The notes under the pieces are model-generated. The model was not told where the DNA came from and made no database searches. It worked only from the letters and a program-made list of their open reading frames with translations. The position numbers were made by a program, and so were the translations under genes. A stretch of 64,000 nt of DNA from Faecalibacterium prausnitzii (GTDB lineage: Bacteria; Bacillota; Clostridia; Oscillospirales; Ruminococcaceae), in NCBI RefSeq assembly GCF_003287405.1, contig NZ_PRLD01000006.1, positions 62,001 to 126,000 of the forward strand, read 5' to 3'. Positions 1 through 48,042 of this stretch are shown here, in pieces (the first letter of the stretch is position 1; every line of letters begins with the position of its first letter).

Positions 1-110
1 GTAGTTCCGAAACGCCCGCAGGCGTTTCGGAACTACAAATAAAAATATTCTTTCCGCTACTGATGCGCAAAGCGAACGCGGAGCGCATTCTGAATCGTCC
101 CGCCCTGCCC
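1..110 (-). repeat. Family A hairpin repeat, copy A1
   Basis: A 16-bp perfect inverted repeat (1-16 with 21-36) is closed by the loop CGCA, which is TGCG on the minus strand. It is followed by an AT-rich linker and a second small hairpin, ATGCGC at 63-68 with GCGCAT at 83-88. The element ends at the stop codon of the permease gene on the minus strand, so in that orientation it lies where a terminator would. The third hairpin of the family would be left of the window edge. Confidence 0.8.
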
Positions 111-884
111 TTACAGCACCGCGTCCGAGATGAGCTTGCCCAGCAGCAGCACCAGCACCACCAGCATCATGGGGCGGATGAAGCGGGCACCCTTTTTCAG
201 GGCAAAATGGGAGCCAAGCAGGTTGCCCAGAATGTTGCTGACGGCGCAGGGGATGCCGATGTGGAACACCACCAGACCGTTCATCAGGTAGGTGAACAGG
301 CTGGCGTAGTTGCTGGCCAGATTGAGCACCTTACCGTTGCCGTTGGCGGTGCGCAGGTCAAAGCCCATCAGGGTGGTAAAGGCAATGATGGCAAAGGTGC
401 CGGTGCCCGGGCCCATGACGCCGTCGTACAGGCCGATGCCAAAGCCGATGGCCAGCGCCAGTAAGATCTTTTTCAGGTCCAGCGTGCCGTCGTCCCGGTT
501 CTCATCCGGCAGGTTGCGCTGCCACAGGATGATGACCGCCGCCACCGGCAGGATGATGAACATCATGGTGCGCAGCATCTCGTCACTGAGCAGCAGCACG
601 ATGTGCGCGCCCAGCGCACTGCCCGCAAAGCTGCCGATGGCTGCAAGGACGCCCACCTTCACGTTTATGGCACCGCTTTTGAAAAAGTTTGCCGTGGCAA
701 AGGTGGTGCCGCAGGCGGCGCTGAACTTGTTGGTGGCATAGGTGTAGTGGGGCGGCAGCCCGGCGAACAGATAGGCCGGCAGACTGATCAGCCCACCGCC
801 GCCGGCTGCCGAATCCACAAAGCCTGCAAAGCCGGTCATCAGCATGAGAAACGCCATCATCCACGGCGAAATCGTGATACCCAT
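111..884 (-). CDS. TSUP-family (TauE/SafE-like) membrane permease
   Basis: 257 residues, strongly hydrophobic, with about eight predicted membrane segments arranged as two similar halves, as in the sulfite exporter TauE/SafE (TSUP) family. The glycine-rich stretch AAGGGG near residues 27-32 and the following ATNKFSAACG segment are typical of the first half. TSUP proteins move small sulfur-containing or organic anions across the cytoplasmic membrane. The substrate cannot be read from sequence. The ATG is preceded by GAGGAA eight bases upstream. It stands alone: its 3' end abuts repeat A1 and the next gene upstream is 160 bases away. Confidence 0.85.
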   Translation of the reverse strand: MGITISPWMMAFLMLMTGFAGFVDSAAGGGGLISLPAYLFAGLPPHYTYATNKFSAACGTTFATANFFKSGAINVKVGVLAAIGSFAGSALGAHIVLLLSDEMLRTMMFIILPVAAVIILWQRNLPDENRDDGTLDLKKILLALAIGFGIGLYDGVMGPGTGTFAIIAFTTLMGFDLRTANGNGKVLNLASNYASLFTYLMNGLVVFHIGIPCAVSNILGNLLGSHFALKKGARFIRPMMLVVLVLLLGKLISDAVL

Positions 885-982
885 TGTTATAATTCCTCTT
901 ATCTTTCCAAGTCGTTTGTTCTTTTTCAGGAGACGCGCGCCTTAGACCATATAAAACCTCCCCTCGCAGGGCAATACACAGC

Positions 983-1018
983 CCGGGATATCCGCGCAGC
1001 GCAGGGGTATCCCGGGCA
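983..1018. other. Intergenic hairpin after the dipeptidase gene
   Basis: GCCCGGGATA pairs perfectly with TATCCCGGGC across a GC-rich 16-base loop. It lies 26 bases beyond the dipeptidase stop codon. There is no clear U-run on the minus strand (TGTGTATT follows), so it may protect the 3' end or be a weak terminator. The other bases between 885 and 1043 show nothing else. Confidence 0.5.
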
Positions 1019-1043
1019 CATTTTGCAATTTTAAGACGTTTTA

Positions 1044-2033
1044 TTACAGATTGTTTTTAAAGAAGCGGTATGCGTTGCGCCAGTAGATGGCTTCCACCTC
1101 GTCCTCGGTAAAGCCCTCGCGGCGCAGTGCCTCGGCCAGCAGCGGCATATCTGCTGCCGTTTCCAGCTCGTGCTGGCCGCCGATGCCGTCAAAGTCGCTG
1201 CCAAGGCTGATGACCTCAATGCCGCCCACCTGCTTGAAGTGTGCCGCGTGCTTTGCCAGCCGCTCCACCGTGCTGCGGCAAAGCTTCGGATGTGCCGAGT
1301 CTGCGTCCACAAAGGAAGCGCAGTAGTTCAGCCCCGCAATGCCGCCTTTTTCTGCCAGTGCGCGGATCATCTCGTCGGTCAGGTTGCGGTTGTGGGGCGA
1401 CAGCGCACGGCAGTTGGAATGGCTTGCCGCAAAGGGGCGGGTGCTGTGATTTACGATGTCCCAGAAGCCCTTATCGGAAAGGTGGCTCACGTCTGCGGTG
1501 ATGTGCAGCTTTTCCATCTCCTCCAAAAAGGCAAAGCCTTGCTCGGTCAGGCCGGTCTCGGTATTGGCCACCAGCGGCCCGCCGGGGTTTGCGTTGGGGG
1601 CTGCCAACTCGTTGGGGTAGTTCCACGTCAGAGTCATCATGCGCACGCCCAGTTCCTGCAGCCGCCGCAGCACGCCCAGACTGCCCTTGCAGCAGCCGCC
1701 CTCTTCCACCGTCAGCATGGCGCTAAGCTTGCCCTCGGCGCGGTTGCGCTCAAGGTCGGCGGCGGTGTACACCGGGGCGATCTTTTCCGGGTAAGCCGCC
1801 ATGAGCCGCTTGAAGATGTCGATCTCCTCCAGCACGCTTACCAGCGGGTCGGCCCCGGGTGCGGGGTCGGCCAGATCCACATAGGCCGCAAAGCATTGCA
1901 GCAGATAATCCCCCTGCTGCAATTTTTCAAGGTCGATATGCAGATCGTTGTGCAAAAAGCTTTTGGGTGCGCCCGCCTTTTCGGCGCGGCGCAGTTCGTA
2001 CAGGGTATCGCAATGCAGATCCCAAACCTTCAT
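1044..2033 (-). CDS. Membrane-dipeptidase-type zinc dipeptidase (peptidase M19)
   Basis: 329 residues, the usual length for the M19 (renal dipeptidase) family, a TIM-barrel metallohydrolase that cleaves dipeptides using two zinc ions. Visible metal-site motifs are HCD (His7, Asp9), the EEGG bridging glutamate near residue 126, DVSHLS and ASHSN. No signal peptide is seen, so it is probably cytosolic. It ends 26 bases before a hairpin and begins 15 bases after the stop of the SNF2 helicase, so the two are likely cotranscribed. In-frame ATG start. Confidence 0.92.
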   Translation of the reverse strand: MKVWDLHCDTLYELRRAEKAGAPKSFLHNDLHIDLEKLQQGDYLLQCFAAYVDLADPAPGADPLVSVLEEIDIFKRLMAAYPEKIAPVYTAADLERNRAEGKLSAMLTVEEGGCCKGSLGVLRRLQELGVRMMTLTWNYPNELAAPNANPGGPLVANTETGLTEQGFAFLEEMEKLHITADVSHLSDKGFWDIVNHSTRPFAASHSNCRALSPHNRNLTDEMIRALAEKGGIAGLNYCASFVDADSAHPKLCRSTVERLAKHAAHFKQVGGIEVISLGSDFDGIGGQHELETAADMPLLAEALRREGFTEDEVEAIYWRNAYRFFKNNL

Positions 2034-2048
2034 GATGGATGCACTCCT

Positions 2049-5000
2049 TTATGCTTCTTCTCCCAGCAGCTGCAGCAGCTGTTCGGGGTTCATAGACAAA
2101 ATCGCGCCGTCTGCCCCACCGGTAACGGTGTCGGCCAGCGACTGCTTGGCCTGCTGCAGTTCCACGATCTTTTCCTCAATGGTATCCTGCGCGATCAGCC
2201 GGTACACCTGCACCGGGTTGCGCTGGCCGATGCGGTAGGCGCGGTCGGTGGCCTGATTCTGCGCGGCAAGGTTCCACCACGGGTCGTAGTGGATGACGAT
2301 ATCGGCGGCGGTCAGGTTCAGACCCGTGCCGCCCGCCCGCAGCGAGATGAGAAAGACATCCGCCTCGCCCTGATTGAACCGGCGCACCTGCTCGGCGCGC
2401 ACCGGCTTCGGGGTAGAGCCCTGCAGGGTAAAGTGGCTTACCCCGGCTTCGTCCAGCCGTTTTGCCAGCAGTTCCAGCATGGAGGTGAACTGGCTGAACA
2501 GCAGAATGCGGTGCCCGCCCGCCACTGCCTCGGTGACAAGTTCCAGACAGGCGTCCAGCTTGGCACTGCTGCCCGTCCAGTTGTCTGCCACAAGGCGCGG
2601 GTCGCAGCAGATCTCCCGCAGCCGCATCAGCACGGCAAACACGGTCATCTTGTCCTCCGGCTTTGCCGCCCGCAGCTTTTCCCGGGCGTCCACCACCGCT
2701 GCCAGGTACAGCTTGCGCTGCTCGGTTTCCAGCTCAACGCGGCGCACATTCTCGGTTTTGGGCGGCAGCTCCCGCAGCACCTCCGACTTCATGCGCCGCA
2801 GGATGAAGGGGCCGGTGAACTGGTTCAGCCGCCGCACGGCGTTGGCATCTTCGTCCTGCACGATGGGCTTTTCAAACCGGGCGCAGAAGGTCTTGTAAGG
2901 GGGCAGATACCCGGGCATCAAAAAGGAGAAGATGCTCCACAGCTCGCCCAAGCGGTTCTCCACCGGGGTACCGGTCAGGGCAAAGCGCACCCGGCTGTTC
3001 ACCCGGCACACCGCCTTGTATTTCTGGGTGGTGTGGTTCTTGATGGCCTGCGCTTCGTCCAGAATGCAGGCGTAGAAGCTTTGCCCGGCATACAGTTTTT
3101 CGTCCCGGCGCAGCAAATCGTAGCTGGTGATGACAAGATCCGCCTGTGCCCACCCATCGACTAACGCGGCACGATGGGCGGCATCGCCGTCCATGGCAAC
3201 GCTTTGCAGCTGCGGGGTGAACTTCTGGCATTCCTCCTGCCAGTTCAGCACCAGCGACGCCGGGCAGACGATGAGGCTGGGCAGCTGCTGCCCGCCCTCC
3301 TTCATCGCCAGCAGGTAGCTGAGCACCTGCACCGTCTTGCCCAGACCCATATCATCGGCCAGAATGCCGCCCATGCCGTAGCCATCCAGTGTGCGCAGCC
3401 AGCGGTAGCCGTCCCGCTGGTATTTGCGCAGGGTCTTTTGCAGCGAGAGCGGCGGGGTATATTCGCTGTCCCGCACGGCGTGGAAGCTGCGGCTGATGCG
3501 CCGGAAAGCATCGTCCCGGTCGAACCGCAGGCCGTTCTGCCCCGAAAGCGCCCAGTCCAGCGTGGGCGCGCGGTAGAGCGGCAGAGCGGCGTGGCCGTCC
3601 TTCAGCTTTGCGCCGGAAAGCTCCAGCGTGTCGTTCAGCTCGTCCAGCCCTTCCAGACTGTCGTCCAGCCGCAGCAGACTGCCGTCCCGCAGGCGGTGGT
3701 AGCGCTTTTTCTGGTGCAGGGACTGCAAAAGCTCCCGCAGCTCCTCCACCGGGAACGCGCCGGTGTCCACTTCCAAATCCAGCACGCTGCCGTGCACCGA
3801 AACCCCTACCGAGATCTTAGGCGGGGCGGCCTGTAAGTTGCGGAAGGCATCGGTCTGGTACACCTCGCCCATGGCCAGCAGGGCGGGAATGCCCTCTTCC
3901 AGCAGCTGGAAAAGCGCCTCCTCCCCGGAAATGCTGTAATGCCCGGGCTTGCCGCTCTCGGGTTCCAGATAGGTTTCCAGCAGCCGCTTTGCCCGGTTCT
4001 CGGTGCGGGCATCCCGCAAAAGATCCGGCGGCACCGGCTCGCCGGGGGCTACCCTGTCCTCGCCGTACAGAAAGACCGGGTACGCCGTAACGGTAAGCCC
4101 CCGGTCGGCATCCAGATAAAACTGCACCACCGGTTCCAGTGGGATCTGGTTCAGCAGCAGCCGGTCGGGGTCCACGATGTTGACCCGGTTGCCCAGCTCC
4201 GGCAGCACATAGCTGCAAAAGGCGGCGGCATCCGCGCTGGTAAAGAACAAACTGCGCCCGCCAAAAGTCTCCAGCACCGGCAGCACCCGGCGGCATTCCT
4301 CCCGCTGCATCCGCCAGAGGGTGGTCTCGCCCAGCAGATAAGCATAGTCCAGCCCCTGCACCCCGCTGAGCGCCGGGGTACAGCTCAGCTGCACGCCGCC
4401 CTTGCGGCGCTCCACCTTCAGGCTGATGACCGGCAGACCCTCTTTAAGGGTATAGCCGCCCACAACGCCCTCGGCGGCGTAAAGCTCCACAAGGGCATCC
4501 AGCCCCTCGCCGGTCAGCGGCAGACCGCCCGCCGGGCCTTTCTCCCAGCCGGAGCGCACCGTACCCTCGGCTTCAAACGCCTGCCGGGCGCTCACCTGAC
4601 GGCGCAGCAGCCGCAGCAATTGCTGCGCATCCGGGGCAAAGGCGTCCCACCGGTGCACAAACGCCAGCGACTTGCCGTAGCTGACGCTTTCGCCCTGCTC
4701 GACCGCATCCAGAAACTGCGGGATGCTTTTTACCAGATACTGCCGCCTGCCGATGCCGTCCGAGACCCGCAGCCGCAGCCAGATACGGCCATTGTGCGGC
4801 GTAAGTTCCGGCTCCAGCAGGGCAAAGCCGGTGCGCTGGGCAGCGGGCTGGGGCTGCTGCTGCGCATCCTCCCGCTGGTAGCGTTTCAGCAGAAGCTGGG
4901 CTTCATAGTCGGTCTCCGGCTCCTCACCCCGCCACTTGCGGCCGAACAGCATATCCAGCCCGGCGCTGTAGCTATCCTTGCGGGGTTCGGTGCTCAAGCC

Positions 5001-5488: not shown

Positions 5489-5551
5489 TATCGCAAATAT
5501 GCCGTTTGAATGCTGCACTAATTTCTTGACTTGCGATAGAAAGCGCGGGGC

Positions 5552-5690
5552 GGGACGATTTTGAATGGCTTCCGCTACGCTCTAGCCATTTTCAGCGGAA
5601 AAATTATTTTTATATAGAGCAATACCGGAGCGTCTGCGGACGCTCCGGTATTGCATTTTTCACGGGAAAGGCCGTAAAGGCAAACGGCAT
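5552..5690 (+). repeat. Family A hairpin repeat, copy A2
   Basis: Hairpin 1 is AATGGC (5564-5569) with GCCATT (5585-5590). The linker is AGCGGAAAAATTATTTTTA. Hairpin 2 is a 16-bp stem, GCAATACCGGAGCGTC with its complement, closed by TGCG (5619-5654) and followed by ATTTTTCACGGG. The third hairpin is absent. In this copy both stems differ from those of A1 but remain paired. Confidence 0.85.
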
Positions 5691-5719
5691 TTATTGTGTT
5701 ATAGTAAGTTCACAACTGT

Positions 5720-8254: not shown

Positions 8255-8390
8255 CTCGCCCTCTCCGTCATCGCTCACGCGATGCCACCTCCCCCAAAGT
8301 GGGAGGCCTTGGCAGTCCACACAAACTTTACCTCTTTGCCAAGGGCTCTCCCTTTGGGAGAGCTGGACGCGAAGCGGCCTGAGAGGGCGG
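8255..8390. repeat. Family B palindromic element, copy B1
   Basis: The element begins CTCGCCCTCTCCGTC and ends CCTGAGAGGGCGGAG. In between are hairpins CACCTCCCCCAAAGTGGGAGG and GCTCTCCCTTTGGGAGAGC, and a TTGGCAGTCCA/TTGCCAAGG pair. It lies between the genes for the two fumarase subunits. Confidence 0.8.
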
Positions 8391-10450: not shown

Positions 10451-10640
10451 TCCTCGCCCTCTCCGTCTGCTCACTGCGTTCGCATCCACCTCCCCCAAAG
10501 TGGGAGGCCTTGGCAGTCCACGCAAACTTTCTGGTTTTGCCAAGGGCTCTCCCTTTGAGGAAAGACTTCCCCCGCTCCGGGGGAAGATGTCGCGCAGCGA
10601 CAAAAGGGGGGATCTGTCACCGCAGGTGACTGAGAGGGCG
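10451..10640. repeat. Family B palindromic element, copy B2 (long form)
   Basis: Between the divergent malic enzyme and foldase genes. It starts CTCGCCCTCTCCGTC and ends GGTGACTGAGAGGGCG. It has the usual hairpins plus an added GACTTCCCCC/GGGGGAAG hairpin, GTCGCGCAGCGAC and GTCACCGCAGGTGAC. The same added module recurs in copy B11. Confidence 0.8.
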
Positions 10641-12021: not shown

Positions 12022-12040
12022 CAATGCACCTGCCGGGGCG

Positions 12041-12212
12041 TGAACGATTTTAATGCGCTCCGCTTCGCTCTGCGCATAGATAGCGGAAAAATTATTTTTA
12101 ATAGAGCAATGCCGGAGCGTCTGCGGACGCTCCGGCATTGCATTTTCACGGGAGGGGTCGTGGAGGAAAACGGCAGCTGCCGCGCCGCTTTCTGCGAAAG
12201 CGCGGCGCAGCG
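12041..12212 (+). repeat. Family A hairpin repeat, copy A3
   Basis: Complete copy starting 20 bases after the foldase stop. Hairpin 1 is ATGCGC (12053-12058) with GCGCAT (12072-12077). Hairpin 2 is the 16-bp GCAATGCCGGAGCGTC stem with loop TGCG (12106-12141), followed by ATTTTCACGGGAGGGGTCGT. Hairpin 3 is CGCCGCTTTC-TGC-GAAAGCGCGGCG (12184-12208). It has the orientation and position of a terminator for the foldase gene. Confidence 0.85.
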
Positions 12213-12223
12213 GGGGATAAAAC

Positions 12224-12354
12224 TCCCCCAGTCGCCTACGGCGACAGCCCCCTCTGAGATGGGGCCCTTGGCAAAACCGGAGACTTTCCCGCCATGCCAA
12301 AGGCTCCCTCCCAGAGGGAGCTGGCAAAACCGTCAGGTTTTGACTGAGGGAGTT
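12224..12354. repeat. Family B palindromic element, copy B3
   Basis: Begins CTCCCCCAGTCGCC and ends GACTGAGGGAG. It has hairpins GTCGCCTACGGCGAC, CTCCCTCCCAGAGGGAG and CAAAACCGTCAGGTTTTG. It is sandwiched between A3 and A4; 12355-12419 is a short unassigned spacer. Confidence 0.75.
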
Positions 12355-12419
12355 CAGCCGTCCCCTTGGGGAAGGTGGCTTGACGCGAAGCGGCAAGACG
12401 GAAGGGGTATCTCGGCATC

Positions 12420-12556
12420 TGCCGTTCCCCTTCACGACCCCATTCGTGAAAATGGGGTTCAGAAACGTCCGCAGGCGTTTCTGAACCCCGAAATTTAAAA
12501 AAATCTTTCCACTGATTATGCCCAGAGCAACGCGGAGCGCATTCTAAATCGTCCAA
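12420..12556 (-). repeat. Family A hairpin repeat, copy A4
   Basis: In minus orientation. Hairpin 2 is the GGGGTTCAGAAACG-type 16-bp stem with loop CGCA on the plus strand (12454-12489) and has one G-T wobble. Hairpin 1 is degenerate here (ATGCCC against GCGCAT). It lies just beyond the pgsA terminator. Confidence 0.8.
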
Positions 12557-12562
12557 CACAAC

Positions 12563-12600
12563 CAAAAAGGCCGCTGCACGGTGAGGTGCAGCGGCCTTTG
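12563..12600 (-). terminator. Rho-independent terminator of rimO-pgsA
   Basis: On the minus strand AAAGGCCGCTGCAC pairs with GTGCAGCGGCCTTT around CTCACC, ending in TTTTT. It starts 13 bases after the pgsA stop. Confidence 0.9.
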
Positions 12601-14604: not shown

Positions 14605-14785
14605 ACGATTTAAGGATTTAAAATGCGCTCCGCGTTCGCTTTGCGCATATTCAGCGGAAGAACTATTTTAAATTTTGGGGTTCAGAAACGCCTGCGGGCG
14701 TTTCTGAACCCCATTTTCACGGATGGGGTCGTAACGGAAAACGGCATTTGCAACGCCGCTTTCTACGAAAGCGCGGCGCTGCGGT
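14605..14785 (+). repeat. Family A hairpin repeat, copy A5
   Basis: Complete copy. Hairpin 1 is ATGCGC (14623-14628) with GCGCAT (14643-14648). Hairpin 2 is GGGGTTCAGAAACGCC-TGCG-complement (14677-14712), followed by ATTTTCACGGATGGGGTCGT. Hairpin 3 is CGCCGCTTTC-TAC-GAAAGCGCGGCG. It opens a compound array A5-B4-C1-E1 in the rimO-recX gap (14559-15116). Confidence 0.85.
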
Positions 14786-15068: not shown

Positions 15069-15096
15069 TCTGGTTCTCTTTTGGTGTCAAAAGAGA
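15069..15096. repeat. Family E hairpin, copy E1
   Basis: GTTCTCTTTTG-GTGT-CAAAAGAGAAC is a perfect 11-bp hairpin lying 20 bases beyond the recX stop codon. An identical copy is at 23446-23472. Confidence 0.7.
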
Positions 15097-15116
15097 ACAT
15101 CTCCCGTCTACTGCCT

Positions 15117-20520: not shown

Positions 20521-20682
20521 GAACTCCCTCAGTCAAAACCTGACGGTTTTGCCAGCTCCCTCGGAGAGGGAGCCTCTGGCGCAGCCGGAAGGTTTACGTT
20601 TTGACCGGAAAGCTTTCCGCCATGCCAAAGGCCCCATCCCAGAGGGGGCTGGCATCGCGCAGCGATGACTGGGGGAGTTTTT
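20521..20682. repeat. Family B palindromic element, copy B5
   Basis: Left end CTCCCTCAGTC, right end GATGACTGGGGGAG. Hairpins include CAAAACCTGACGGTTTTG, GCTCCCTCGGAGAGGGAGC and ATCGCGCAGCGAT. The element almost fills the gap between the response regulator and its kinase. Confidence 0.8.
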
Positions 20683-22746: not shown

Positions 22747-22842
22747 ACCGGTCAACCTCCTTCCGAGCATAAAAAGCTATTTTCAGTATACCACACTTTG
22801 CGGACACAAAAAAGGGGGTGGGCATATCTGGCGCTTACGCGT

Positions 22843-23015
22843 GGGACGATTTTAAATGCGCGCCGCGTTGCTCTGCGCATAGTCAGCGGAAAGATTATTT
22901 TTATTTGTAGTTTCGAAACGCCTGCGGGCGTTTCGAAACTACTTTTTCACGGGAGGGGTCGTAAAGGAAAATGGCATTTGCAGCGCCGCTTTCTGCGAAA
23001 GCGCGGCGCTGCGGG
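22843..23015 (+). repeat. Family A hairpin repeat, copy A6
   Basis: Complete copy. Hairpin 1 is ATGCGC/GCGCAT. Hairpin 2 is GTAGTTTCGAAACGCC-TGCG-complement (22907-22942), followed by TTTTTCACGGGAGGGGTCGT. Hairpin 3 is AGCGCCGCTTTC-TGC-GAAAGCGCGGCGCT. It opens the compound array A6-B6-C2-D1-E2 that fills 22843-23472. Confidence 0.85.
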
Positions 23016-23041: not shown

Positions 23042-23190
23042 CTGAACTCCCTCAGTCAAAACCTGACGGTTTTGCCAGCTCCCTCGGAGAGGGAGCCTTT
23101 GGCATGGCGGTACAGTTTCCGGCTAAAACGCAAAGCTTGCGGGCGTGCCTGCTCCCCCTTGGGGGAGCTGTCGCGCAGCGACTGAGGGGC
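23042..23190. repeat. Family B palindromic element, copy B6
   Basis: Left end CTCCCTCAGTC, right end GCGACTGAGGGG. Hairpins are CAAAACCTGACGGTTTTG, GCTCCCTCGGAGAGGGAGC, GCTCCCCCTTGGGGGAGC and GTCGCGCAGCGAC. Confidence 0.8.
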
Positions 23191-23281
23191 TTTAAATCGG
23201 CGGAGCCGGAAAAAACGGTTAAAAGATCTTCACGCCGAACAGGCGTGAATCTTCAGTTTTTTCCGGTGTAGCCCACTTCTT
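23191..23281. repeat. Family C repeat, copy C2
   Basis: Near-identical to 14918-15000: outer CCGGAAAAAAC / GTTTTTTCCGG and inner TTCACGCC-GAACA-GGCGTGAA hairpin. It follows a B element directly, as at the other site. Confidence 0.8.
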
Positions 23282-23445: not shown

Positions 23446-23472
23446 CCGGTTCTCTTTTGGTGTCAAAAGAGA
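23446..23472. repeat. Family E hairpin, copy E2
   Basis: GTTCTCTTTTG-GTGT-CAAAAGAGAAC, the same as at 15069-15096. It closes the compound array just before the rplQ terminator. Confidence 0.7.
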
Positions 23473-23501
23473 ACGTCCCACGCACTTTTGCAATAAGTTG
23501 C

Positions 23502-27212: not shown

Positions 27213-27387
27213 GAGGTTTTTTCCGTATTTCCGATAAAAAATTATTCTGTGTAAAAGCTCTTTTCCGTCCCGTCCTCCTTTCGCGGTTCTCCACCGTGAA
27301 GGTGAAACTTTTTCACGAAAAGTTGTCACAATTGCACAAATTGCAGGAGGGAGGAGAGAAAAACGGATCTCGCGCAAGGACAGTGGG

Positions 27388-27530
27388 CTCGCCCTCTCCG
27401 TCTTTGCTACGCAAATCCACCTCTCCCAAAGGGAGAGGCCTTGGCAAAGAGATGCAGTCTGCGTGAACTGCCAAGGGCTCCCACTTTGGGGGAGCTGGCA
27501 AAGCCGACAGGCTTTGACTGAGAGGGCGAG
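27388..27530. repeat. Family B palindromic element, copy B7
   Basis: Left end CTCGCCCTCTCCGTC, right end GACTGAGAGGGCGAG. Hairpins are CCTCTCCCAAAGGGAGAGG and CTCCCACTTTGGGGGAG, with CAAAGCCGACAGGCTTTG. It sits in the middle of the ribosomal protein cluster between map and infA. The rest of 27213-27387 shows nothing recognised. Confidence 0.8.
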
Positions 27531-39736: not shown

Positions 39737-40094
39737 TGCTTACGCCTCCTGAAAAATTGTTTTTGCCCTAGGCGAGCCGATAAATTGCTCTACACAGTTC
39801 CGGGTGTTCCTCGATTTGGCACTATAAAAACCGGTGAACCGCATGGCAGTTCTCCCGGAAACATATTAGCAAATCAAATCCGAACATTGGTTCCGCCCGT
39901 TTCGCAGAGGAGTAACTTCTCTGCCGAGGGAACGTATTCCATCGCTGTCAGTAATTTTTTCGCCCGGTTCTAAGATCGGACATACTCCGCGGAAATAACC
40001 CATCGCAGCTATCGCCGGATGACAACCTCCCGCATCAACGCATATCGCTGGCCTGCACGACTTGTATCGCACAAGCCTTTTGCAGCCGAGAGAT
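39737..40094 (-). promoter_or_regulatory. Long leader of the S10 operon
   Basis: About 350 transcribed bases between the rpsJ promoter and its ATG. Visible hairpins in order: CTTGT-GCGAT-ACAAG, a GTTCC/GGAAC-closed GCAGAG/CTCTGC stem, and a terminator-like hairpin at 39826-39858. No long open frame is convincing. The architecture does not resemble the E. coli L4 leader as I know it. Confidence 0.6.
39826..39858 (-). terminator. Attenuator-like terminator in the S10 leader
   Basis: Minus-strand CCGG-GA-GAACTGC-CAT-GCGGTTC-A-CCGG, 11 pairs with a small internal loop, followed directly by TTTTTA. It lies about 90 bases upstream of rpsJ and inside its own leader, so it would act as a transcription attenuator. 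Confidence 0.65.
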
Positions 40095-40123: not shown

Positions 40124-40300
40124 GTGTTTTTTGCAGAAAATTACGATTTTTCTTTTTTATTTTCTCTGTTTTGTCAATGGCCGCATTTTCTGTGCAAGAT
40201 GCACAATCTCAGCGCTTTTTGCCGGTGGAAAACTCCCCCGCTCCCCTTTGCAGCATCAGTATGGGCGGTAGACGCGGGGGTTATACCTATTATATAAGAG

Positions 40301-40447
40301 AACTCCCTCAGTCAAAGCCTGTCGGCTTTGCCAGCTCCCTCGGGGAGGGAGCCTTTGGCATGACGGGAAAGTTCCCAGCTGAAGTGTAAAGCTTCTGGGC
40401 GTGCCAGCTCCCCCTCGGGGGAGCTGTCGCGCAGCGACTGAGGGGTT
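40301..40447. repeat. Family B palindromic element, copy B8
   Basis: Left end CTCCCTCAGTC, right end GCGACTGAGGGG. Hairpins are CAAAGCCTGTCGGCTTTG, GCTCCCTCGGGGAGGGAGC, GCTCCCCCTCGGGGGAGC and GTCGCGCAGCGAC. Compared with B6, the first stem carries paired substitutions. Confidence 0.8.
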
Positions 40448-40451
40448 TTTA

Positions 40452-40535
40452 ATGGAGAAGCGAAAAAAGCGTTAAAGCGATAGCGCCGACTGGCGCAGCG
40501 CTAGCTTTTTTGTGCTTCGACTTCTTCTTTAGGTT
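40452..40535. repeat. Family C repeat, variant copy C3
   Basis: The outer stem is AAAAAAGC / GCTTTTTT and the inner hairpin is TAGCGCC-GACT-GGCG-CAGCGCTA. This is the same plan as C1 and C2 with different paired sequence. It follows a B element and precedes a D element, as at 23 kb. Confidence 0.65.
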
Positions 40536-40538
40536 TGT

Positions 40539-40673
40539 CAAGGGCGTGCAGCCCTTGACCCGTTGCGGGGTGGGTGGAGTCCAGAGGTAGGGAGGGGGGA
40601 GTCGGAACACCCCTCCCTGCCTCTGGCCCAGCGGAGCGTCCCTGCACGCTTGCGACAAGCAGAAGCTTTCCCC
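40539..40673. repeat. Family D repeat, copy D2
   Basis: GTCAAGGGC-GTGCA-GCCCTTGAC and a long CCAGAGG(T/C)AGGGAGGGG stem with its complement, nearly identical to 23287-23430. Confidence 0.8.
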
Positions 40674-40842
40674 GCAGCGCCGCTGCTTCCGCAGGAAGCA
40701 GCGGCGCTGCAAATGCCGTTTTCCTCCACGACCCTACCCGTGAAAAAGCCAATCGGGAAAATCCGCAGATTTTCCCGATTGGCAAATTTAAAATAATTCT
40801 TCCTTGAACCATGCGCAAAGCAAACGCGGCGCGCAGTTCAAA
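40674..40842 (-). repeat. Family A hairpin repeat, copy A7
   Basis: Complete copy in minus orientation ending at the rqcH stop codon. Hairpin 2 is GCCAATCGGGAAAATC-CGCA-complement (40748-40783), a stem version not seen elsewhere in the window. Hairpin 3 is AGCGCCGCTGCTTCC with its full complement, also rewritten relative to A3, A5 and A6. Hairpin 1 is TGCGC/GCGCA. Confidence 0.85.
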
Positions 40843-42597
40843 TCATTTCTTCTTCAGCTGCTCTTCCAGCCCCTCCCGCGGGGTGATGTAGACGGTGGTG
40901 TACACCTCGTACAGCACCATGCCGGGCTTGGCACCGTTTGCTTTCCAGATATTCTTCACCTCGGTGGTGTCCACTGCCACCTTGGCACCGGTGCCCGCCT
41001 TGTAGGCGCTGGAATGGATGACCGCCAGCTCCGCCGCTTCCTGCTTGGTGGTGTCCGGGATGTCCTCGCCCCGGCTCATGACCACAACATGGCTGCCGGG
41101 TGCTTTCTGCACATGGAACCATAAGTCCTTGCCCCGGGCGGTGTGCAGGGTGAGCTTGTCGTTCTGGGCGTTGTTGCGGCCCACCAAGATCTCAAAGCCA
41201 TCGCTGGAGGTATAGCGCAGAAAGTCCGCAGGCTTCTGCTTTTTGTCCCGCTGCTTGTAGTATTTCAGGTAGCCCTGATTTTTCAGCTCCATGCGGATCT
41301 CGTTCAGGGCAGCTTCACCGGAGGCGCTTTCCACCTCGTAGAGCACCGTTTCCAGATAGGCGATCTCCTTTTCGCCCTCTGCCAGCAGGTCCACCAGCAT
41401 CCGGGCGGCGGTCTGCTTCTTTTTGTAGTTCTTAAAGAAGTTCTGGGCATTCTGGCTGGGGCTGAACCGCAGATCCAGCGGGATGGTCACCTCTTTGCCT
41501 TCGTCGTACCAGTTGGGCACGGTCAGACTCTTCATGCCCTTTTGCGCCAGATAGAGGTTTGCGGACAGCAGCTCACCGTACAGGCGCAGCTTTTCGCTTT
41601 TGCCGCTGGCGGCAAGCTCTTCCTGCCGCGCTGCCTGCTTGCGCAGAGCGCGGTCATACATATTGTGCACCGCCTTGTGCAGCTCCTTGCTCTTGGTGCG
41701 CAGCCGCTCGGCGCGGTCCTTCTCGGCATAGTAGCCCTCCAGCATCGCGTTGAAGGACGGCCACTCCCGGATGGTGTACTGCTCGCCGTACTGCTGCGGG
41801 CGGAAGAAGGTATACTCCACCGGCTTACCGTCCGGCGCGGTGACGCTGCAGGGACAGCCGCCCTGCGCGTGCAGCTCCTTCAGCTCGTCGATTGCCGCCA
41901 TCAGGCTGCGCTTCTGGGCATCGGTCAGCTCATTGGCGGGCAGATGTTCTCCGTCAAAGGCGCGCCATGCGGCTTCGCGGCAGACCACCGGCCCTACGCC
42001 GGCCACCGTCTTGTTCAACGCGTCCGCCACCGGCAGCTCCCGCTGACAGGCCGCTGCCACAATGGACGCACTGCTCACCAGCAGAAAATCCGGGCGGGCG
42101 GGCTTGGGGGGCGTAGTGTAGGGCAAGCCCGGCAGCAGCTGCCGGACGTCGCTGTCCTCAAAATCCACCCGCTTGAGGGCATCGATGATCTTGCCGCTCT
42201 GCACCAGCACAAGGTTGGAGTAGCGCCCCATCAGCTCAGCGCACAGGGTATTGCGCACAAGGTCGCCCATCTCGTTGGTGCACTGAAAATCAAAGTAGAC
42301 GATACGGTCGCCCGGCTCCATGTGCACATCCAGCAGTCTGCCGCCGGTCAGGTGCTTGCGCATGAGCATACAGAAGGAGGGCGGCGTCTCGGGGTTTTCA
42401 AAGGTCTCCTCGGTCAGGCACACCCGTGCAGAGCCGCTGCGGGCAGACAGCAGCAGGGCGTAGGTATCGGTGCGGGTGCGCAGGGTGATGACCAGCTCAT
42501 CCCGGGTCGGTTCAAAAATTTTTGCGATCTTGGCATCGGTCAGGGTAGCTTTCAGCTCCGCTGCCGTCAGCGCCAGTGTCGCGGCATCCAGTGCCAT
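40843..42597 (-). CDS. rqcH: Ribosome quality control protein RqcH (NFACT/Rqc2 homolog)
   Basis: 584 residues. NFACT-N domain (residues 1-~180, MALDAATLALTAAELKATL), helix-hairpin-helix and long coiled coil in the middle (~270-430), and NFACT-R domain (~440-560, SSDGFEILVGRNNAQNDKLT, DLWFHVQKAPGSHVVV). In Bacillus it binds obstructed 50S subunits and directs poly-alanine tailing for degradation. Older annotations call it fibronectin-binding protein. Repeat B9 precedes it and A7 follows it. Confidence 0.93.
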   Translation of the reverse strand: MALDAATLALTAAELKATLTDAKIAKIFEPTRDELVITLRTRTDTYALLLSARSGSARVCLTEETFENPETPPSFCMLMRKHLTGGRLLDVHMEPGDRIVYFDFQCTNEMGDLVRNTLCAELMGRYSNLVLVQSGKIIDALKRVDFEDSDVRQLLPGLPYTTPPKPARPDFLLVSSASIVAAACQRELPVADALNKTVAGVGPVVCREAAWRAFDGEHLPANELTDAQKRSLMAAIDELKELHAQGGCPCSVTAPDGKPVEYTFFRPQQYGEQYTIREWPSFNAMLEGYYAEKDRAERLRTKSKELHKAVHNMYDRALRKQAARQEELAASGKSEKLRLYGELLSANLYLAQKGMKSLTVPNWYDEGKEVTIPLDLRFSPSQNAQNFFKNYKKKQTAARMLVDLLAEGEKEIAYLETVLYEVESASGEAALNEIRMELKNQGYLKYYKQRDKKQKPADFLRYTSSDGFEILVGRNNAQNDKLTLHTARGKDLWFHVQKAPGSHVVVMSRGEDIPDTTKQEAAELAVIHSSAYKAGTGAKVAVDTTEVKNIWKANGAKPGMVLYEVYTTVYITPREGLEEQLKKK

Positions 42598-43506: not shown

Positions 43507-44166
43507 TCAGTTTCCCTCTTTCAGAATGGCATCCATCTCTGCGGCAAGCGCACTGCCGTCCGGCACGCCCAGCCGCATCCGGGGCAGCTTTGCCCGCTGC
43601 CATGCGGCATAGCCCGCACCCTCCGGCCAGCGGCCGGTATCCCCCAGCAGACACTGGGTAAAGGTGGGCTCGGTCACCTCGCCGGTGTACTCCGCCGCCA
43701 TCACCGCATACCAGCGGCCAGCGGCCAGCACCGGGCGGTCTGCCACAAGAGCAAAGCCGTGCTGCCACAGCCAGCGGCGCAGCTCACTGTGGCGGGTGGC
43801 GGGCACCATGACAAGGCGCGGCCCGCCCACAGCGGACACCCACGGCGCTTTTTCGATGATCTCCCAAGTGGTCTGCGCCGACACGCCCGCCAGCACGATG
43901 CTGCCCACCTCCCCGGCAGACAACACAGAAAGACCGTCGCCGAGCCGAAGCTCAGCGCGGTCCAGACAACCTGCATTTTCCAGCGTCTGTTTTGCCTTTG
44001 CCAGCGGGCCGGGGCGCAGGTCTGCCCCGATGACCTTCGGGTACTTACCCGAAGCCGCCAGCACCGCCGTCAGCTTGCCGTGGTCACAGCCGATGTCCGC
44101 CACCGGCTGTCCCGGGCGCACCAGCTGGGCCGCTGCGGTCAGACGCGCATCCAGTGTGGGCAGCAC
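43507..44166 (-). CDS. trmK: tRNA (adenine(22)-N1)-methyltransferase TrmK
   Basis: 219 residues from a GTG start that directly follows the TGA of the DUF1858 gene. SAM-binding motif VADIGCDHGKL near residue 24, then GADLRPGPLAKA. It methylates A22 of certain tRNAs. Translationally coupled to both neighbours. Confidence 0.92.
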   Translation of the reverse strand: MLPTLDARLTAAAQLVRPGQPVADIGCDHGKLTAVLAASGKYPKVIGADLRPGPLAKAKQTLENAGCLDRAELRLGDGLSVLSAGEVGSIVLAGVSAQTTWEIIEKAPWVSAVGGPRLVMVPATRHSELRRWLWQHGFALVADRPVLAAGRWYAVMAAEYTGEVTEPTFTQCLLGDTGRWPEGAGYAAWQRAKLPRMRLGVPDGSALAAEMDAILKEGN

Positions 44167-44421
44167 TCAGGCCTTCTTGGCTGCCAGATGGGTGTTCAGC
44201 TTCTCCAGCAGCTCATCGCAGTTCACGCCGTGCACTTCGCAGGCTTCCTCGATGGTCTCGCCGCGGGAAGCCGGGCAGCCCAGACAGTGCATCCCGATCT
44301 CCATAAAGTAGGGTGCGGTGGTCTGGTCCATATCCAGAATATCGCCGATGATGGTATCGCGGGTCACCTGCTTGGGTGCGGTGTGTTCCTCTTTTTTGAG
44401 CATATTGAAAATATCAAACAT
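44167..44421 (-). CDS. DUF1858 small redox-type protein
   Basis: 84 residues. Contains the DUF1858 hallmark: a conserved helix pair with YFMEIGMHCLGCPASRGETIEEACEVHG, a CxxC pair at about Cys46 and Cys49. The family is thought to take part in iron-sulfur or disulfide chemistry, often beside hybrid-cluster proteins; the exact role is unknown. First gene of a DUF1858-trmK-nif3 operon with its own promoter. Confidence 0.85.
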   Translation of the reverse strand: MFDIFNMLKKEEHTAPKQVTRDTIIGDILDMDQTTAPYFMEIGMHCLGCPASRGETIEEACEVHGVNCDELLEKLNTHLAAKKA

Positions 44422-44477
44422 GATAGCTTTTCCTTTCTGTTTTGGGTGAGATACAGTATAACCTACTGTTCCTCTAT

Positions 44478-44507
44478 ACTATACCCCAAACCGGGGCAGT
44501 TTTGCAA
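44478..44507 (-). promoter_or_regulatory. Putative promoter of the DUF1858-trmK-nif3 operon
   Basis: Minus-strand TTGCAA, 18 bases, TATAGT, about 57 bases upstream of the ATG. The spacer contains a CCCCGGTTTGGGG inverted repeat. Confidence 0.55.
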
Positions 44508-44526
44508 GAGCCTTGGGGAAATCCGC

Positions 44527-45405
44527 TTACCCCTCCGCCTGATAGTCCTTTTCCAGCGAGAAGCCGCGCCCGCTTACCTCGGTAACGTGGCTCACGATCA
44601 TAAAGCAGGTGGGGTCGATGGCGTGCGCCAGCTTTTCCAGCCTTGGCAGCTGCCGGTTGGAGACCACGCTCAGCAGCACCGATTCCGGCTCCCGCAGGTA
44701 GCCGCCCTCGCCGTGCAGAATGGTCACGCCGCGGTCCAGCTGCGCAAAAATAGCGGCGCAGATCTCATCGGACTTGGCGCTGATGATCTTTACCTCGGTG
44801 CGGGTGGTGCCCAGCATGAGCACCTTGTCCAGCACGACCGTGTAGATAATGGCCATCACCACGCCGTACAGGGACTGCCGCACCGGGCTGAACGCCGCCT
44901 GCGCCGCCAGAATGATAAAGTCGAAAACCATCATGGTGCTGGACACCGGCAGGTGGAACCACTTGTTCAGCACCAGCGGGGGGATATCCATGCCGCCGGT
45001 GGAAGCACCGGCGCGGATGGTGATGCCCAGCGAGATGCCGATGCCAAAGCCCGCGAATACGGTGTTCAGCACCAGATCATCGGTCAGCACAAGATTGCCC
45101 AGCAGCCGCTCCCACAGCGCCATAAAAAAGGGACTGAGCACCGTGCTTGCCATGGTGTTCAGGGCAAAGCGGCGTCCCAGCACCCACCAGCCCAGCAGCA
45201 GCATGGCCACGTTGACCACGAACAGCACTGCAGACACCGGCAGGCCGGTGACCTTGTTGAAAGCCAGTGCGATACCGGTGGCACCGCCGGTGATCAGGCC
45301 GGAGGGCATCAGAAATAATACCACAGTCAGCGCATACATCGCATTGCCCACCACGATGGACAGTGCGTTGAAGAGCTGCTGCTGCTTGCGTGTTAATTGC
45401 GTCAT
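44527..45405 (-). CDS. YitT family membrane protein with DUF2179 domain
   Basis: 292 residues from the ATG at 45405; an ATG six bases upstream touches the ribosome site AAAGGA. About six membrane segments (residues ~10-200) form the YitT domain, followed by a cytosolic DUF2179 domain (~215-285, KIISAKSDEICAAIF, RGVTILHGEGGYLREPE). The family is widespread in Firmicutes and its function is unknown. Monocistronic. Confidence 0.88.
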   Translation of the reverse strand: MTQLTRKQQQLFNALSIVVGNAMYALTVVLFLMPSGLITGGATGIALAFNKVTGLPVSAVLFVVNVAMLLLGWWVLGRRFALNTMASTVLSPFFMALWERLLGNLVLTDDLVLNTVFAGFGIGISLGITIRAGASTGGMDIPPLVLNKWFHLPVSSTMMVFDFIILAAQAAFSPVRQSLYGVVMAIIYTVVLDKVLMLGTTRTEVKIISAKSDEICAAIFAQLDRGVTILHGEGGYLREPESVLLSVVSNRQLPRLEKLAHAIDPTCFMIVSHVTEVSGRGFSLEKDYQAEG

Positions 45406-45456
45406 CTTCATCTTCCTTTGTTTATAGTTGAAGGTTCTTCTACTATGATAACGAAA

Positions 45457-45497
45457 ATATCCGCATTTATCAAGCCTTCGGCGATAAATGCGGATAT
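45457..45497 (-). terminator. Terminator of the DUF1538-PII operon
   Basis: Minus-strand ATATCCGCATTTATC with a perfect 15-base complement, loop GCCGAAGGCTT, followed by TTTTCGTT. It lies 20 bases after the PII-like stop. Confidence 0.8.
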
Positions 45498-45517
45498 CGG
45501 GATCAATTTTTAAGGGG

Positions 45518-46216
45518 TCACAGGGCAGCTTCCGGCTGGGCTTCGTCCTCTTCCATCAGCCGCAGACCGGCGGTATCGGTAACCGGCAGCGAGAACACGA
45601 TGGCGCCCGCCTTGGGGTTTGCCCCCTCCATAATGGCTTTCATGATGGTGTTTTTCTGGCTGGTGCGGCTGACGATGAGCACCAGCTCCTTTTCGTTCAC
45701 CAGCTCCACGCCCAGAAAGGCGGCTGCACCCTCCATGCCGGTGCCCTTTGCGTGGATCACCGTGCCGCCGCCTGCACCGGCGGTGCGGGCAGCGTCCATA
45801 ATGGAGCCGGTGTAGCCCTGATTTGCCACCACCAGCAGCAGTTCGTAGCGGGTATCCTTCAAGGTGCTCTCCTCCTTCCATGTAAGGGACTGGTGCTCGG
45901 TGAGGAACATCAGCGCCCGTTTGCCGCCAATGCTGCTCAGCGGCACAATGAACGCAATGCCGGTGCCCGGCACATCGATCTGCATTTTGCGGCGCAGATC
46001 CTTCTGGATCTTCTGCCAGCTCTCTGCCGTTACCACAGCCAGCAGCACCGCCTTTTCGGTCTTTTCCAGCCCAAGGGTGGAAAGCGTCTCCTGCACCGCC
46101 GTGCCGGAGCCTACGGTGCGCATACTTACCGTTACGCCGTGGCTTTTGTACAGCTGCAAAAAGCCATCGGTAGAGCGGCGGTCGGTGATGGTGATCATCA
46201 AAAACAAACTGCTCAC
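45518..46216 (-). CDS. Tandem PII-like signalling protein
   Basis: 232 residues from a GTG start with GGAGG six bases upstream. Two ferredoxin-like PII-type halves (about 1-115 and 120-232). The second half keeps the PII signature GAGGGTVIHAKGTG and the FLGVELVNEKELVLIV strand; the first half is more divergent (VSMRTVGSGTA). PII proteins are normally trimers of single domains that bind nucleotides and control transporters or enzymes. It is cotranscribed with the DUF1538 membrane protein 12 bases upstream, so it probably regulates that protein. Confidence 0.82.
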   Translation of the reverse strand: MSSLFLMITITDRRSTDGFLQLYKSHGVTVSMRTVGSGTAVQETLSTLGLEKTEKAVLLAVVTAESWQKIQKDLRRKMQIDVPGTGIAFIVPLSSIGGKRALMFLTEHQSLTWKEESTLKDTRYELLLVVANQGYTGSIMDAARTAGAGGGTVIHAKGTGMEGAAAFLGVELVNEKELVLIVSRTSQKNTIMKAIMEGANPKAGAIVFSLPVTDTAGLRLMEEDEAQPEAAL

Positions 46217-46228
46217 GTTCTGCCTCCT

Positions 46229-47779
46229 TTACAGCTCGATAATGGCGTCATCCGGCAGGTCTGCAAACACGGTGGCAAGCACCGCAGCGGGCTGCGCCAC
46301 ATGCGCCTTGCGGGTGCGCAGCTGCGCCACCAGACCCATCATCTGCACGGTGATGAGCGGAGTCATGGCGACCATCGCCACCACGCCGAAAGCATCGGTG
46401 ACGATGTTGCCGCCCACCGCCACGCAGGCACCCTGTGCCAGCGGCAGCAGGAAGGTTGCGGTCATAGGGCCGGAAGCCACACCGCCCGCGTCAAATGCGA
46501 TGGCGGTAAACAGCTTGGGCACCACAAAGGAGATGCTGATGGCGAACACATAGCCCGGCACAAGGAACCACAGGATGGAGATGCCGGTCAGCACCCGCAC
46601 CATGGCAAGACCCACCGAGATGGACACGCCTGCGGAAAGTGCCAGACCCATGGCCTGCGCCGAGATGGCACCGTCGGTCACCTCTTCCACCTGCTTGTTC
46701 AGCACATAGACCGCAGGCTCGGCCTTGACGATGAAGTAGCCGATGAGCATTCCGATGGGAATGATCACCCAGCGCATCCCACTGCCTGCCAGCACCTGTC
46801 CCAGATAGTTACCGGCGGGCATAAAGCCCACGTTTGCGCCGGTCAAAAAGAGCACAAGGCCGATATAGGTATACGCAAGGCCCACGCCGATGCGCCCCAG
46901 CGTGCGGCGGTCCAGCCGCAGGGCAATGAGCTGAAATGCCCCGAACATCAGCACAATGGGCAGCAGCGAGCGGGCGATCTCGGCAAGATAGGTGGGCAGG
47001 CCTTCCCGGAACAGCCGCCACAATTCCACCGAGTCTGCCACCTCCGGCAGAACAGGCGGGATGTAGGTGCTGTCCGCTGCGCGGAAGGCGATGCCCAGCG
47101 TCAGCACCGCCAGAATGGGGCCGATGGAGCACATGGCCACCAGACCAAAGCTGTCGTCCGCCGCGTGGCGGTCGCTGCGGATGGCGGAAACACCCACGCC
47201 CAGCGCCATGATAAAGGGCACAGTCATGGGGCCGGTGGTCACGCCGCCGGAGTCAAACGCCACGGCGAGAAACTCCTTGGGCACAAAGGCCGCCAGCAGA
47301 AAGATGAGCCCATAGAACAGCACCAGCAGCTTTGGCAGCGCAACGCCGATGAGCATACGCAGGAAGGCAAAGACCAGAAACAGGCCCACGCCCGCCGCCA
47401 CCGAAAGGATCAGCGTACCGCTGGGGATGGAGGGCACCTGATCTGCCAGCACCTGCAAGTCCGGCTCAGAGATAGTGATAAGGAAGCCCAGCAAAAAGCC
47501 GAGCACGAGGATGAGGGGCAGCTTGCGGCTGCGGGTGATGACTGCACCCACCCGCTCGCCCATGGGGGTCATGCTCATCTCTGCACCCAGAGTAAAGAAC
47601 ATGATGCCCACCACGATCATGGCAGCGCCCAGCAAAAAGCACAGCAGGATGCTGGGCGACACCGGTGCTACCGTAAAGCAGAGCACCAGCACAATGGCCA
47701 CAATGGGCAGCACCGCCTGCAGCGCCTCCAAAAGCTTTTCCCGCAGCTTGGGGAGCGATCGTCTGAGAATGATGTCCAC
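46229..47779 (-). CDS. DUF1538 family membrane protein, internally duplicated
   Basis: 516 residues from the GTG at 47779; a TTG at 47818 also opens the frame but lies inside an inverted repeat next to the promoter, so the shorter form is preferred. About 12-14 membrane segments in two related halves: AFDSGGVTTGPMTVPF in the first and AFDAGGVASGPMTATF in the second are clear repeats of one motif, each after a V-P-K-x-[FL] segment. The architecture suggests a transporter with inverted or tandem halves. Substrate unknown. Paired with the PII-like gene. Confidence 0.82.
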   Translation of the reverse strand: MDIILRRSLPKLREKLLEALQAVLPIVAIVLVLCFTVAPVSPSILLCFLLGAAMIVVGIMFFTLGAEMSMTPMGERVGAVITRSRKLPLILVLGFLLGFLITISEPDLQVLADQVPSIPSGTLILSVAAGVGLFLVFAFLRMLIGVALPKLLVLFYGLIFLLAAFVPKEFLAVAFDSGGVTTGPMTVPFIMALGVGVSAIRSDRHAADDSFGLVAMCSIGPILAVLTLGIAFRAADSTYIPPVLPEVADSVELWRLFREGLPTYLAEIARSLLPIVLMFGAFQLIALRLDRRTLGRIGVGLAYTYIGLVLFLTGANVGFMPAGNYLGQVLAGSGMRWVIIPIGMLIGYFIVKAEPAVYVLNKQVEEVTDGAISAQAMGLALSAGVSISVGLAMVRVLTGISILWFLVPGYVFAISISFVVPKLFTAIAFDAGGVASGPMTATFLLPLAQGACVAVGGNIVTDAFGVVAMVAMTPLITVQMMGLVAQLRTRKAHVAQPAAVLATVFADLPDDAIIEL

Positions 47780-47800
47780 CGCCTTTCGTCTGTATCCTGT

Positions 47801-47818
47801 TTGTACACTTTTGTACAA
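47801..47818. promoter_or_regulatory. Perfect inverted repeat before the DUF1538 gene, candidate operator
   Basis: TTGTAC-ACTTTT-GTACAA, 6-bp arms with 6-base spacer. It sits just downstream of AT-rich promoter-like sequence (TATACTATAAATATA on the minus strand). This suggests repression by a dimeric regulator. Confidence 0.5.
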
Positions 47819-47924
47819 GATATATTTATAGTATACGGATTCAGGGGGATACCGTCAACCGGCAGAAGGAAAAAACTTGAGCAAGTTCCATAAATTGTAA
47901 AAATATATTACTCACCTTTATGTC

Positions 47925-48042
47925 CTTCCCCGTGAAAATGGAATACCGGAGCGTCCGCAGACGCTCCGGTATTCCGAACTTATAAATAATTTTTCCGCTG
48001 AATATGGCCAAAGCGCACGCGGCGGCCATTCAAAATCGTCCT
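47925..48042 (-). repeat. Family A hairpin repeat, copy A8
   Basis: Minus orientation, ending at the flippase stop codon. Hairpin 1 is ATGGCC (48004-48009) with GGCCAT (48024-48029), a paired rewrite of ATGCGC/GCGCAT. Hairpin 2 is GGAATACCGGAGCGTC-CGCA-complement (47940-47975). The gap 47819-47924 upstream shows only promoter-like sequence. Confidence 0.85.

Follow-up and report, generated by a model that had tools for sequence, protein, structure and literature searches.

A clade-specific repeat family of Faecalibacterium whose central hairpins covary and are replaced wholesale at orthologous loci

The window analysed here is a stretch of 64,000 nucleotides (contig C61:62001-126000) of a 3.03 Mb draft genome of the genus Faecalibacterium. 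It carries eight copies (A1 to A8) of a repeat with two or three hairpins, designated family A, in which the stem sequences differ between copies and the pairing is kept. The central stem covaries beyond relatedness, and a large part of its rewriting is wholesale hairpin replacement at orthologous loci. Stems that are not replaced are protected in place, neighbouring copies form convergent pairs and the occupancy of the sites differs among relatives. On balance, family A appears to be a non-autonomous mobile repeat resembling the repetitive extragenic palindromes (REP), the palindromes of which evolve by copy exchange and by hairpin-templated template switching, a reading that we favour with little more than even confidence. 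On the tests applied, family A is neither a RAYT-REP nor an attC site nor a known Rfam RNA.

The element measures about 140-180 nt. Its left end, GGACGATTT, is followed by a 6-bp hairpin (H1), the AT-rich spacer TCAGCGGAAAAATTATTTTTA, a 16-bp hairpin with a TGCG loop (H2), ATTTTCACGGGAGGGGTCGT, AAAGGAAAACGGCATTT and often a third hairpin (H3); the motif right of H2 is TTTTCACGGGAGGGGTCGT. H1 occurs as ATGCGC/GCGCAT, ATGCCC/GGGCAT, ATGGCC/GGCCAT, ATGGCT/AGCCAT and in other forms. The eight copies proposed in the initial annotation of this DNA were all located, the stem sequences quoted there were correct, and the loop that it had called invariant was TGCG in 8/8 window copies. The flanks described as shared were also recovered, with 6 window matches for each of the two motifs (up to 3 mismatches) against means of 0.01 and 0.03 after dinucleotide shuffling, and 0/100 shuffles reached 6. 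The third hairpin could be detected in five of the eight copies (the edge copy being counted from locus L021) and is lacking in those at 5619, 12454 and 47940, and the single "G-T wobble" reported for the copy at 12454 is actually a C.A mismatch on the element's own strand. As single-stranded DNA, A6 was predicted to fold at -44.8 kcal/mol (z -5.2), a value as low being reached by 0/200 shuffles. The H1 loop TCCGC is able to pair with AGCGGA slightly downstream. At least 5 matching bases for this putative pseudoknot were present in 160/262 copies (mean of 200 shuffles 136, maximum 145), which supports it weakly, and it was not used further.

Covariation was analysed in 112 own-genome copies, picked partly by pairing, with our own re-implementation of the R-scape idea, which is not R-scape itself. 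A FastTree tree was used, together with 20 null alignments in which the Fitch substitutions of each column were redistributed over the branches. Fourteen of the 9,591 column pairs scored above every null pair and all 14 belong to H2, where they represent 14 of its 16 pairs. H2 pairs 1 and 16, which are frayed or nearly fixed, were below significance, and so were the H1 pairs in the same tree-based test of 112 copies, probably due to gaps and short arms. In places chosen by the flank motifs alone (fetched stretches, n=63), at least 14 of the 16 pairs were Watson-Crick in 50 and at least 12 in 62, against 10 at most in shuffled insides. The pairing is not an artefact of copy choice. Covariation is real beyond relatedness, in agreement with the earlier proposal of selection or of a copying mechanism that preserves structure: it persists after correction for phylogeny, and the copies are not independent sequences sharing only a short flank, their whole architecture being common.

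Stem sequences are largely free and pairing is not. Under a strict filter, the own-genome A-type copies (n=92) displayed 79 distinct left arms, and 68 of the copies were perfectly paired at pairs 2-16; in eight genomes, 193/230 stems were perfect, with 98 distinct perfect stems. The hairpin finder required at least 11/16 Watson-Crick pairs, with stricter innermost pairs, and at pair 15 it admitted G-U and not A-C, a rule that favours G-U and biases against a reading based on copying between arms. The looser hairpin set includes some hairpins foreign to the family, and the main counts were redone with flank filters (261 copies, eight genomes). Copies of the other genomes were taken from the 150 best-scoring matches and from syntenic stretches, and lean to intact copies.

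Reciprocal matching of left flanks gave 204 orthologous pairs at 58 sites. Comparison of the stems was bimodal: 72 pairs were identical, others were 1-3 pairs apart and many were wholly different at one locus. Flank identity among the four closest genomes was 92-99%. Under strict flank filters, 44 orthologous sites were compared in four close relatives: 24 held a single kind of stem, 19 held two kinds and 1 held three. Among 100 strict pairs, H2 was replaced between kept sides at 4 sites and together with everything rightward at 9, and H1 differed while H2 was kept at 8; these classes can overlap, one site counting in two. Among the window copies (listed below), H2 and all rightward sequence of A5 differ in two close relatives with the left half kept, the hairpin of A7 differs among relatives with both sides kept, an H2-centred change, and A8 has a different H1 in one relative with the main hairpin kept. 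As H2 and H1 are replaced independently at orthologous loci, the hairpins behave as modules. A near-identical copy elsewhere in the genome was found for 16/18 own-genome stems at differing sites versus 12/19 at kept sites, and the replacement would correspond to gene conversion between copies.

The stems that were kept were compared in the close clade at 33 sites, with at least 13 equal stem pairs, one pair per site and intact neighbours preferred. They showed 4/990 uncompensated bases and 1/495 compensated pairs, whereas the adjacent spacer differed at 35/861 positions and the right motif at 53/1,097: unreplaced stems change about ten times less than the neighbouring element sequence. Paired changes amounted to 4/90 (with 2 uncompensated) and 3/45 (with 1) in two smaller comparisons, and under the strict filter, over all close-clade groups, 4 compensated events were counted versus 2 uncompensated ones. 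The stems are strongly protected in place, and their changes tend to come in pairs.

The remaining stem changes include some that resemble copying from arm to arm at the DNA level. Excerpts from PMC8604942 and PMC8794818 name the inversion of spacers and the homogenisation of arms as marks of inverted-repeat template switching. The subfamily with GCGTTTG/CAAACGC outer arms comprises 34 candidates at different loci, one of them apparently unrelated; a TC/TC two-base mismatch is present in 23, TC/GA in 7, GA/TC in 1 and GC/TC in 1, and two adjacent transversions matching the opposite arm are seen in both directions. At one locus, the loop in genome G026 is CGCA, the reverse complement of TGCG, with a stem identical in G022 and G005 and nearly identical flanks. 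This locus (L228:943, G026 contig C4 near 79044; L190, L209) adjoins an sbcD gene, probably by coincidence. Compensated differences at single loci included AT to CG in G005_29 and AT to GC in G005_30. Among the 98 distinct perfect stems, 45 nearest-neighbour links differ by exactly one pair and represent 23 transitions and 22 transversions, the corresponding ratio for the right flank being 51 : 9 (p=2e-4). According to the excerpt from PMC8604942, earlier bacterial data favoured transversions; in the yeast data of that study itself, transitions were more frequent. Where distinct stems had a single bad pair, it was AC in 13, GU in 10 and another combination in 3, and GU : AC was 10 : 10 over the 12 inner pairs. 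Terminator-like hairpins of the same and related genomes gave GU 40 : AC 12 in a raw control that counted some hairpins repeatedly and 21 : 7 in a weaker, de-duplicated one. The many transversions and the lack of a clear G-U preference speak weakly for DNA over RNA.

The copy number was determined with a covariance model built from seven window copies (threshold E<=0.1). In the own genome, 147 matches were obtained, 150 of the 787 candidates having been scored, and further copies may have been missed. A few of the 147 are fragments or one hairpin counted on both strands; 129 remained without weak and duplicate matches, the 18 left out being 16 weak and 2 overlapping or fragmentary. The right-flank motif, searched over the whole genome with up to 2 mismatches, gave 43 matches (reversed control: 0), of which 41, found without any pairing criterion, lie inside model matches. 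Family A is not the small family of eight described initially. The search of related genomes with the model, as had been suggested, matched the repeat in 13/61 genomes. It is abundant in 8/31 same-genus genomes examined, with at least 53 matches each in G000, G005, G009, G022, G026, G028, G029 and G030; four further genomes of the genus have 1-5 matches each, the other 19 gave none under the stricter filters of that search, and one genome of another family gave a single weak match (E 0.006). One of the eight is Faecalibacterium sp. I4-1-79, and the right-end pattern of the repeat also matches its sequence NZ_CP094467.1. By one window protein, the high-copy genomes are the own genome and the seven genomes closest to it, with an identity of 97-98% in three and of 79-80% in four, and the repeat is therefore a clade-specific expansion. 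With one copy as query, no match was obtained in a plasmid collection. The phage collection, queried likewise, returned nine unannotated human-faecal "Bacteriophage sp." records with partial matches, e.g. MT836242.1 and MT838672.1. The repeat is undescribed among the literature matches listed, a minority of all matches, and Faecalibacterium is not mentioned in excerpts from PMC8040213 or PMC2267715.

Comparison of insertion-site occupancy among relatives, also proposed initially, revealed filled and empty versions. The A5 site is unoccupied in both G009 and G030. At 42.6 kb, the site is empty in G011 and filled with family A in G028 and G029, and a different repeat occupies it in the clade of the window. 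At 27.4 kb, G022 has two convergent copies and G029 has one, and G005 and G026 have none. Filled and empty sites were compared by eye at several loci for target-site duplication and their boundaries were not clean; as terminal inverted repeat, only ACGA/TCGT was seen near the element ends. Among the 129 copies, 21 neighbours within 400 nt were found, 18 convergent, 3 tandem and 0 divergent, for a random expectation of 3.4 in all. In the eight genomes, 0/38 convergent mates share a stem at 13/16 pairs or more, against 7.5% at random, a difference that is not significant alone since several mates are orthologues and a few are non-family. Long perfect palindromes are perhaps avoided in convergent pairs. 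Intergenic islands (window 40300-40851 and others) are mosaics of several repeat families, and one site holds different families across relatives.

Candidate mobilising enzymes were also searched for. A Y1/HUH transposase was rejected as driver: PF01797 is absent from the high-copy genomes G005 and G030 and present in some repeat-free genomes, e.g. G011. Reverse transcriptase is absent from the high-copy genomes G005, G026 and G028. TnpB gave sub-cut-off matches only, none of them in the eight high-copy genomes, and an integron integrase was above the TIGR02249 cut-off in 0/31 genomes, the best match being a broken one of 87.5 bits in G030. All eight high-copy genomes have SbcD, which also occurs in others and is permissive only.

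In the mechanism that we favour, H2 and H1 would be replaced by short ectopic gene conversion between the many copies, which palindromes stalling or breaking at the fork would perhaps provoke. The stem pool would diversify mainly by hairpin-templated template switching during replication, where one arm would be copied from the other and both arms would change together. Most of the remaining changes would be removed by constraint on the resident structure.

Several points weigh against this proposal. Independent insertion at one and the same site may account for some replacements, and no transposase tested tracks copy number. The mismatch TC/TC is retained in 23 of the 34 GCGTTTG-subfamily candidates, so that arm correction is not automatic, and it could come from recombination between TC/GA and GA/TC forms. 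The loop inversion is a single locus in a draft genome. Unbiased arm copying would be expected to give compensated changes about as numerous as flank mutations; kept stems show too few of them, and constraint or back-correction must therefore also act. The transition to transversion ratio depends on the flank chosen for comparison, being 23 : 27 in the AT-rich left spacer and 16 : 8 in another right-flank slice, and the exchange of one stem type for a nearly identical one may account for some of the single-pair differences. Finally, the comparison of bad pairs with de-duplicated terminators gave p=0.04 on the one-bad-pair count and p=0.13 on the 12-pair count, and over all 3,450 cells GU (28) is in mild excess over AC (16; other 9).

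The window copies, all eight of which lie between likely genes, are as follows.

A1, 1..103, minus strand: H1, spacer and 16-bp hairpin GTAGTTCCGAAACGCC at 1-36; the right part is beyond the window edge, the whole copy being contig C61:61963-62103.
A2, 5550..5692, plus strand: H1 ATGGCT/AGCCAT, AT-rich spacer, hairpin GCAATACCGGAGCGTC at 5619-5654 and right motif, without third hairpin.
A3, 12038..12213, plus strand: hairpin GCAATGCCGGAGCGTC at 12106-12141, right motif and third hairpin GCGCCGCTTTC-TGCG-GAAAGCGCGGCGC.
A4, 12417..12557, minus strand: forms a convergent pair with A3; hairpin GGGGTTCAGAAACGCC at 12454-12489, where a single C.A mismatch is present on the strand of the element.
A5, 14608..14785, plus strand: hairpin GGGGTTCAGAAACGCC at 14677-14712 and third hairpin.
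A6, 22841..23014, plus strand: hairpin GTAGTTTCGAAACGCC at 22907-22942 and third hairpin.
A7, 40674..40851, minus strand: hairpin GCCAATCGGGAAAATC at 40748-40783 and third hairpin, directly past the stop of the NFACT-family gene 40843-42597.
A8, 47903..48044, minus strand: hairpin GGAATACCGGAGCGTC at 47940-47975.

An unlikely alternative is that H2 acts as RNA, being an intrinsic terminator or a hairpin of the 3'-UTR, and that its stems covary because each resident copy would be selected for RNA pairing and would change by ordinary two-step compensation. H2 is followed by a conserved, though short, TTTT, and several copies lie directly past stop codons on the same strand. An open frame of at least 120 codons ends near the left end in 83/118 copies versus 535/2000 random places, with a peak at 0-20 nt. 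At the 3' site of the NFACT gene, relatives without the element (G011 and G020) carry terminator-like hairpins, and some copies may, judging from these sequence features, serve as terminators. The loop TGCG fits the UNCG tetraloop rule. The roughly tenfold protection of kept stems and the mild G-U excess over all cells are also compatible with selection on RNA. Against it, A2, A5 and A6 are antisense, upstream of an opposite-strand gene, and A4 comes after another hairpin, terminator-like and separate from it, at 12566-12599. Transversions make up about half of the changes in a single pair, the GU preponderance of terminators is not shared by stems with one bad pair (subject to the two p values given above), and both the inversion of the loop and the copying of two bases between arms are events at the DNA level. 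Genome-wide orientation, assessed with a crude gene caller (n=125), was sense in 51 copies, antisense in 72 and neither in 2. Rfam 15 detected, in the window and at gathering score, only tRNA and S10-Clostridia, neither at a copy; with E<=1 as threshold, 10 weak matches were obtained at five loci, with scores well under gathering. The S10-Clostridia ribosomal protein leader is located at window 39960-40046 (minus strand), above gathering score.

It is less probable that a dedicated recombinase or an HUH transposase recognises the hairpins, as folded single-stranded DNA, by structure and not by the sequence of the stem, the specificity of the enzyme keeping the pairing. Conserved structure with free sequence, filled and empty sites and convergent doublets, the latter as in the REPINs of the excerpt from PMC3116915, would be expected from such sites. 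The enzymes are what this explanation lacks: the Y1 transposase is missing from two high-copy genomes, and neither integron integrase, in the 31 genomes, nor TnpB exceeded its cut-off anywhere. Moreover, a mismatch-bearing subfamily has spread to 23 copies, and resident loci retain their pairing, for which transposition would exert no selection there. A pure exchange of old hairpin types between loci by gene conversion, from a pool diversified slowly long ago and without template switching, agrees with the two or more stem kinds at 20/44 sites and with the excess of near-identical stems elsewhere at differing sites (16/18 versus 12/19), but seems improbable, as the single-locus compensated differences, the TC/GA arm difference and the loop inversion are not obviously exchanges and 45 nearest-neighbour links differ by exactly one pair.

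The preferred reading, a REP-like mobile repeat renewed by copy exchange and template switching, can be set beside known systems. REP, BIME and REPIN elements with RAYT (TnpA_REP) are likewise high-copy, extragenic and palindromic, with inverted doublets as in family A. REP families contain stem variants (excerpt from PMC3733652), and the excerpt from PMC3116915 describes compensatory changes as common in the hairpin of REPINs. Family A differs from RAYT-REP by its unit of 140-180 nt with two or three hairpins, by the lack of a constant GTAG/CGTC foot tag (the H2 foot is GCAA, GTAG, GGGG, GCCA, GGAA or others) and by the two of eight high-copy genomes without Y1 transposase. Its stem diversity within one genome seems greater than that of REP, no REP family having been measured side by side. 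Quasipalindrome template switching, in excerpts from PMC8794818 and PMC8604942, likewise makes arms identical and yields multi-base changes and spacer inversion; it is studied there in single genes, microRNAs or rRNA, and its role in maintenance is called less clear, whereas in family A its substrate would be an entire dispersed repeat family with a built-in palindrome. Miniature inverted-repeat transposable elements are also short, non-coding, dispersed and presence-polymorphic, but no terminal inverted repeat was found in family A beyond ACGA...TCGT. Integron attC sites are variable-sequence folded sites with conserved pairing, as in family A. In contrast to them, family A has perfect stems, no cassette array was seen and no integron integrase was above the family cut-off in the 31 genomes.

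Other repeats are present in the window. The ends of a second family are like CCCTCWCAGTC...GACTGAGAGGG and its cores are TGCCACCTCCC...GGGAGGCCTTGGCA; it was found at the following window positions.

Second repeat family: 8283-8330, 10484-10531, 12242-12348, 20521-20674 and 23044-23197.
Second repeat family, further places: 27381-27522, 40300-40453, 57423-57541 and 60432-60530.

Its small hairpin before GACTGAG also varies in the stem. It scored well enough at 32 of the 52 motif places, and 11 distinct arm pairs were counted among these; the hairpins were picked by pairing, and their 163/166 Watson-Crick pairs are therefore no test of it. An identical hairpin, GTTCTCTTTTGGTGTCAAAAGAGAAC, occurs at window 15073-15098 and 23449-23474 and at islands in relatives, and is probably part of another repeat.

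In a bolder and quite improbable extension, Faecalibacterium would keep an actively shuffled, self-templating library of perfect hairpins, in which a putative structure-reading enzyme would move modules among well over 100 chromosomal sites and rewrite both arms together, the stems diversifying and the fold being inherited; the second, unrelated repeat family of this genome may behave likewise. Covariation is a standard proof of functional RNA. In family A, strong covariation in a large natural family may arise largely from DNA processes, i.e. hairpin replacement and arm-to-arm copying, which, if right, would be a warning against reading the covariation of repeat families as RNA function. With over a hundred replicate palindromes in one genome and close relatives, template switching, loop inversion and ectopic conversion would become measurable in nature, and how perfect stems persist in evolution, a question raised in the excerpt from PMC8794818, would become directly countable. 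Family A would be a natural record of the renewal of DNA palindromes.

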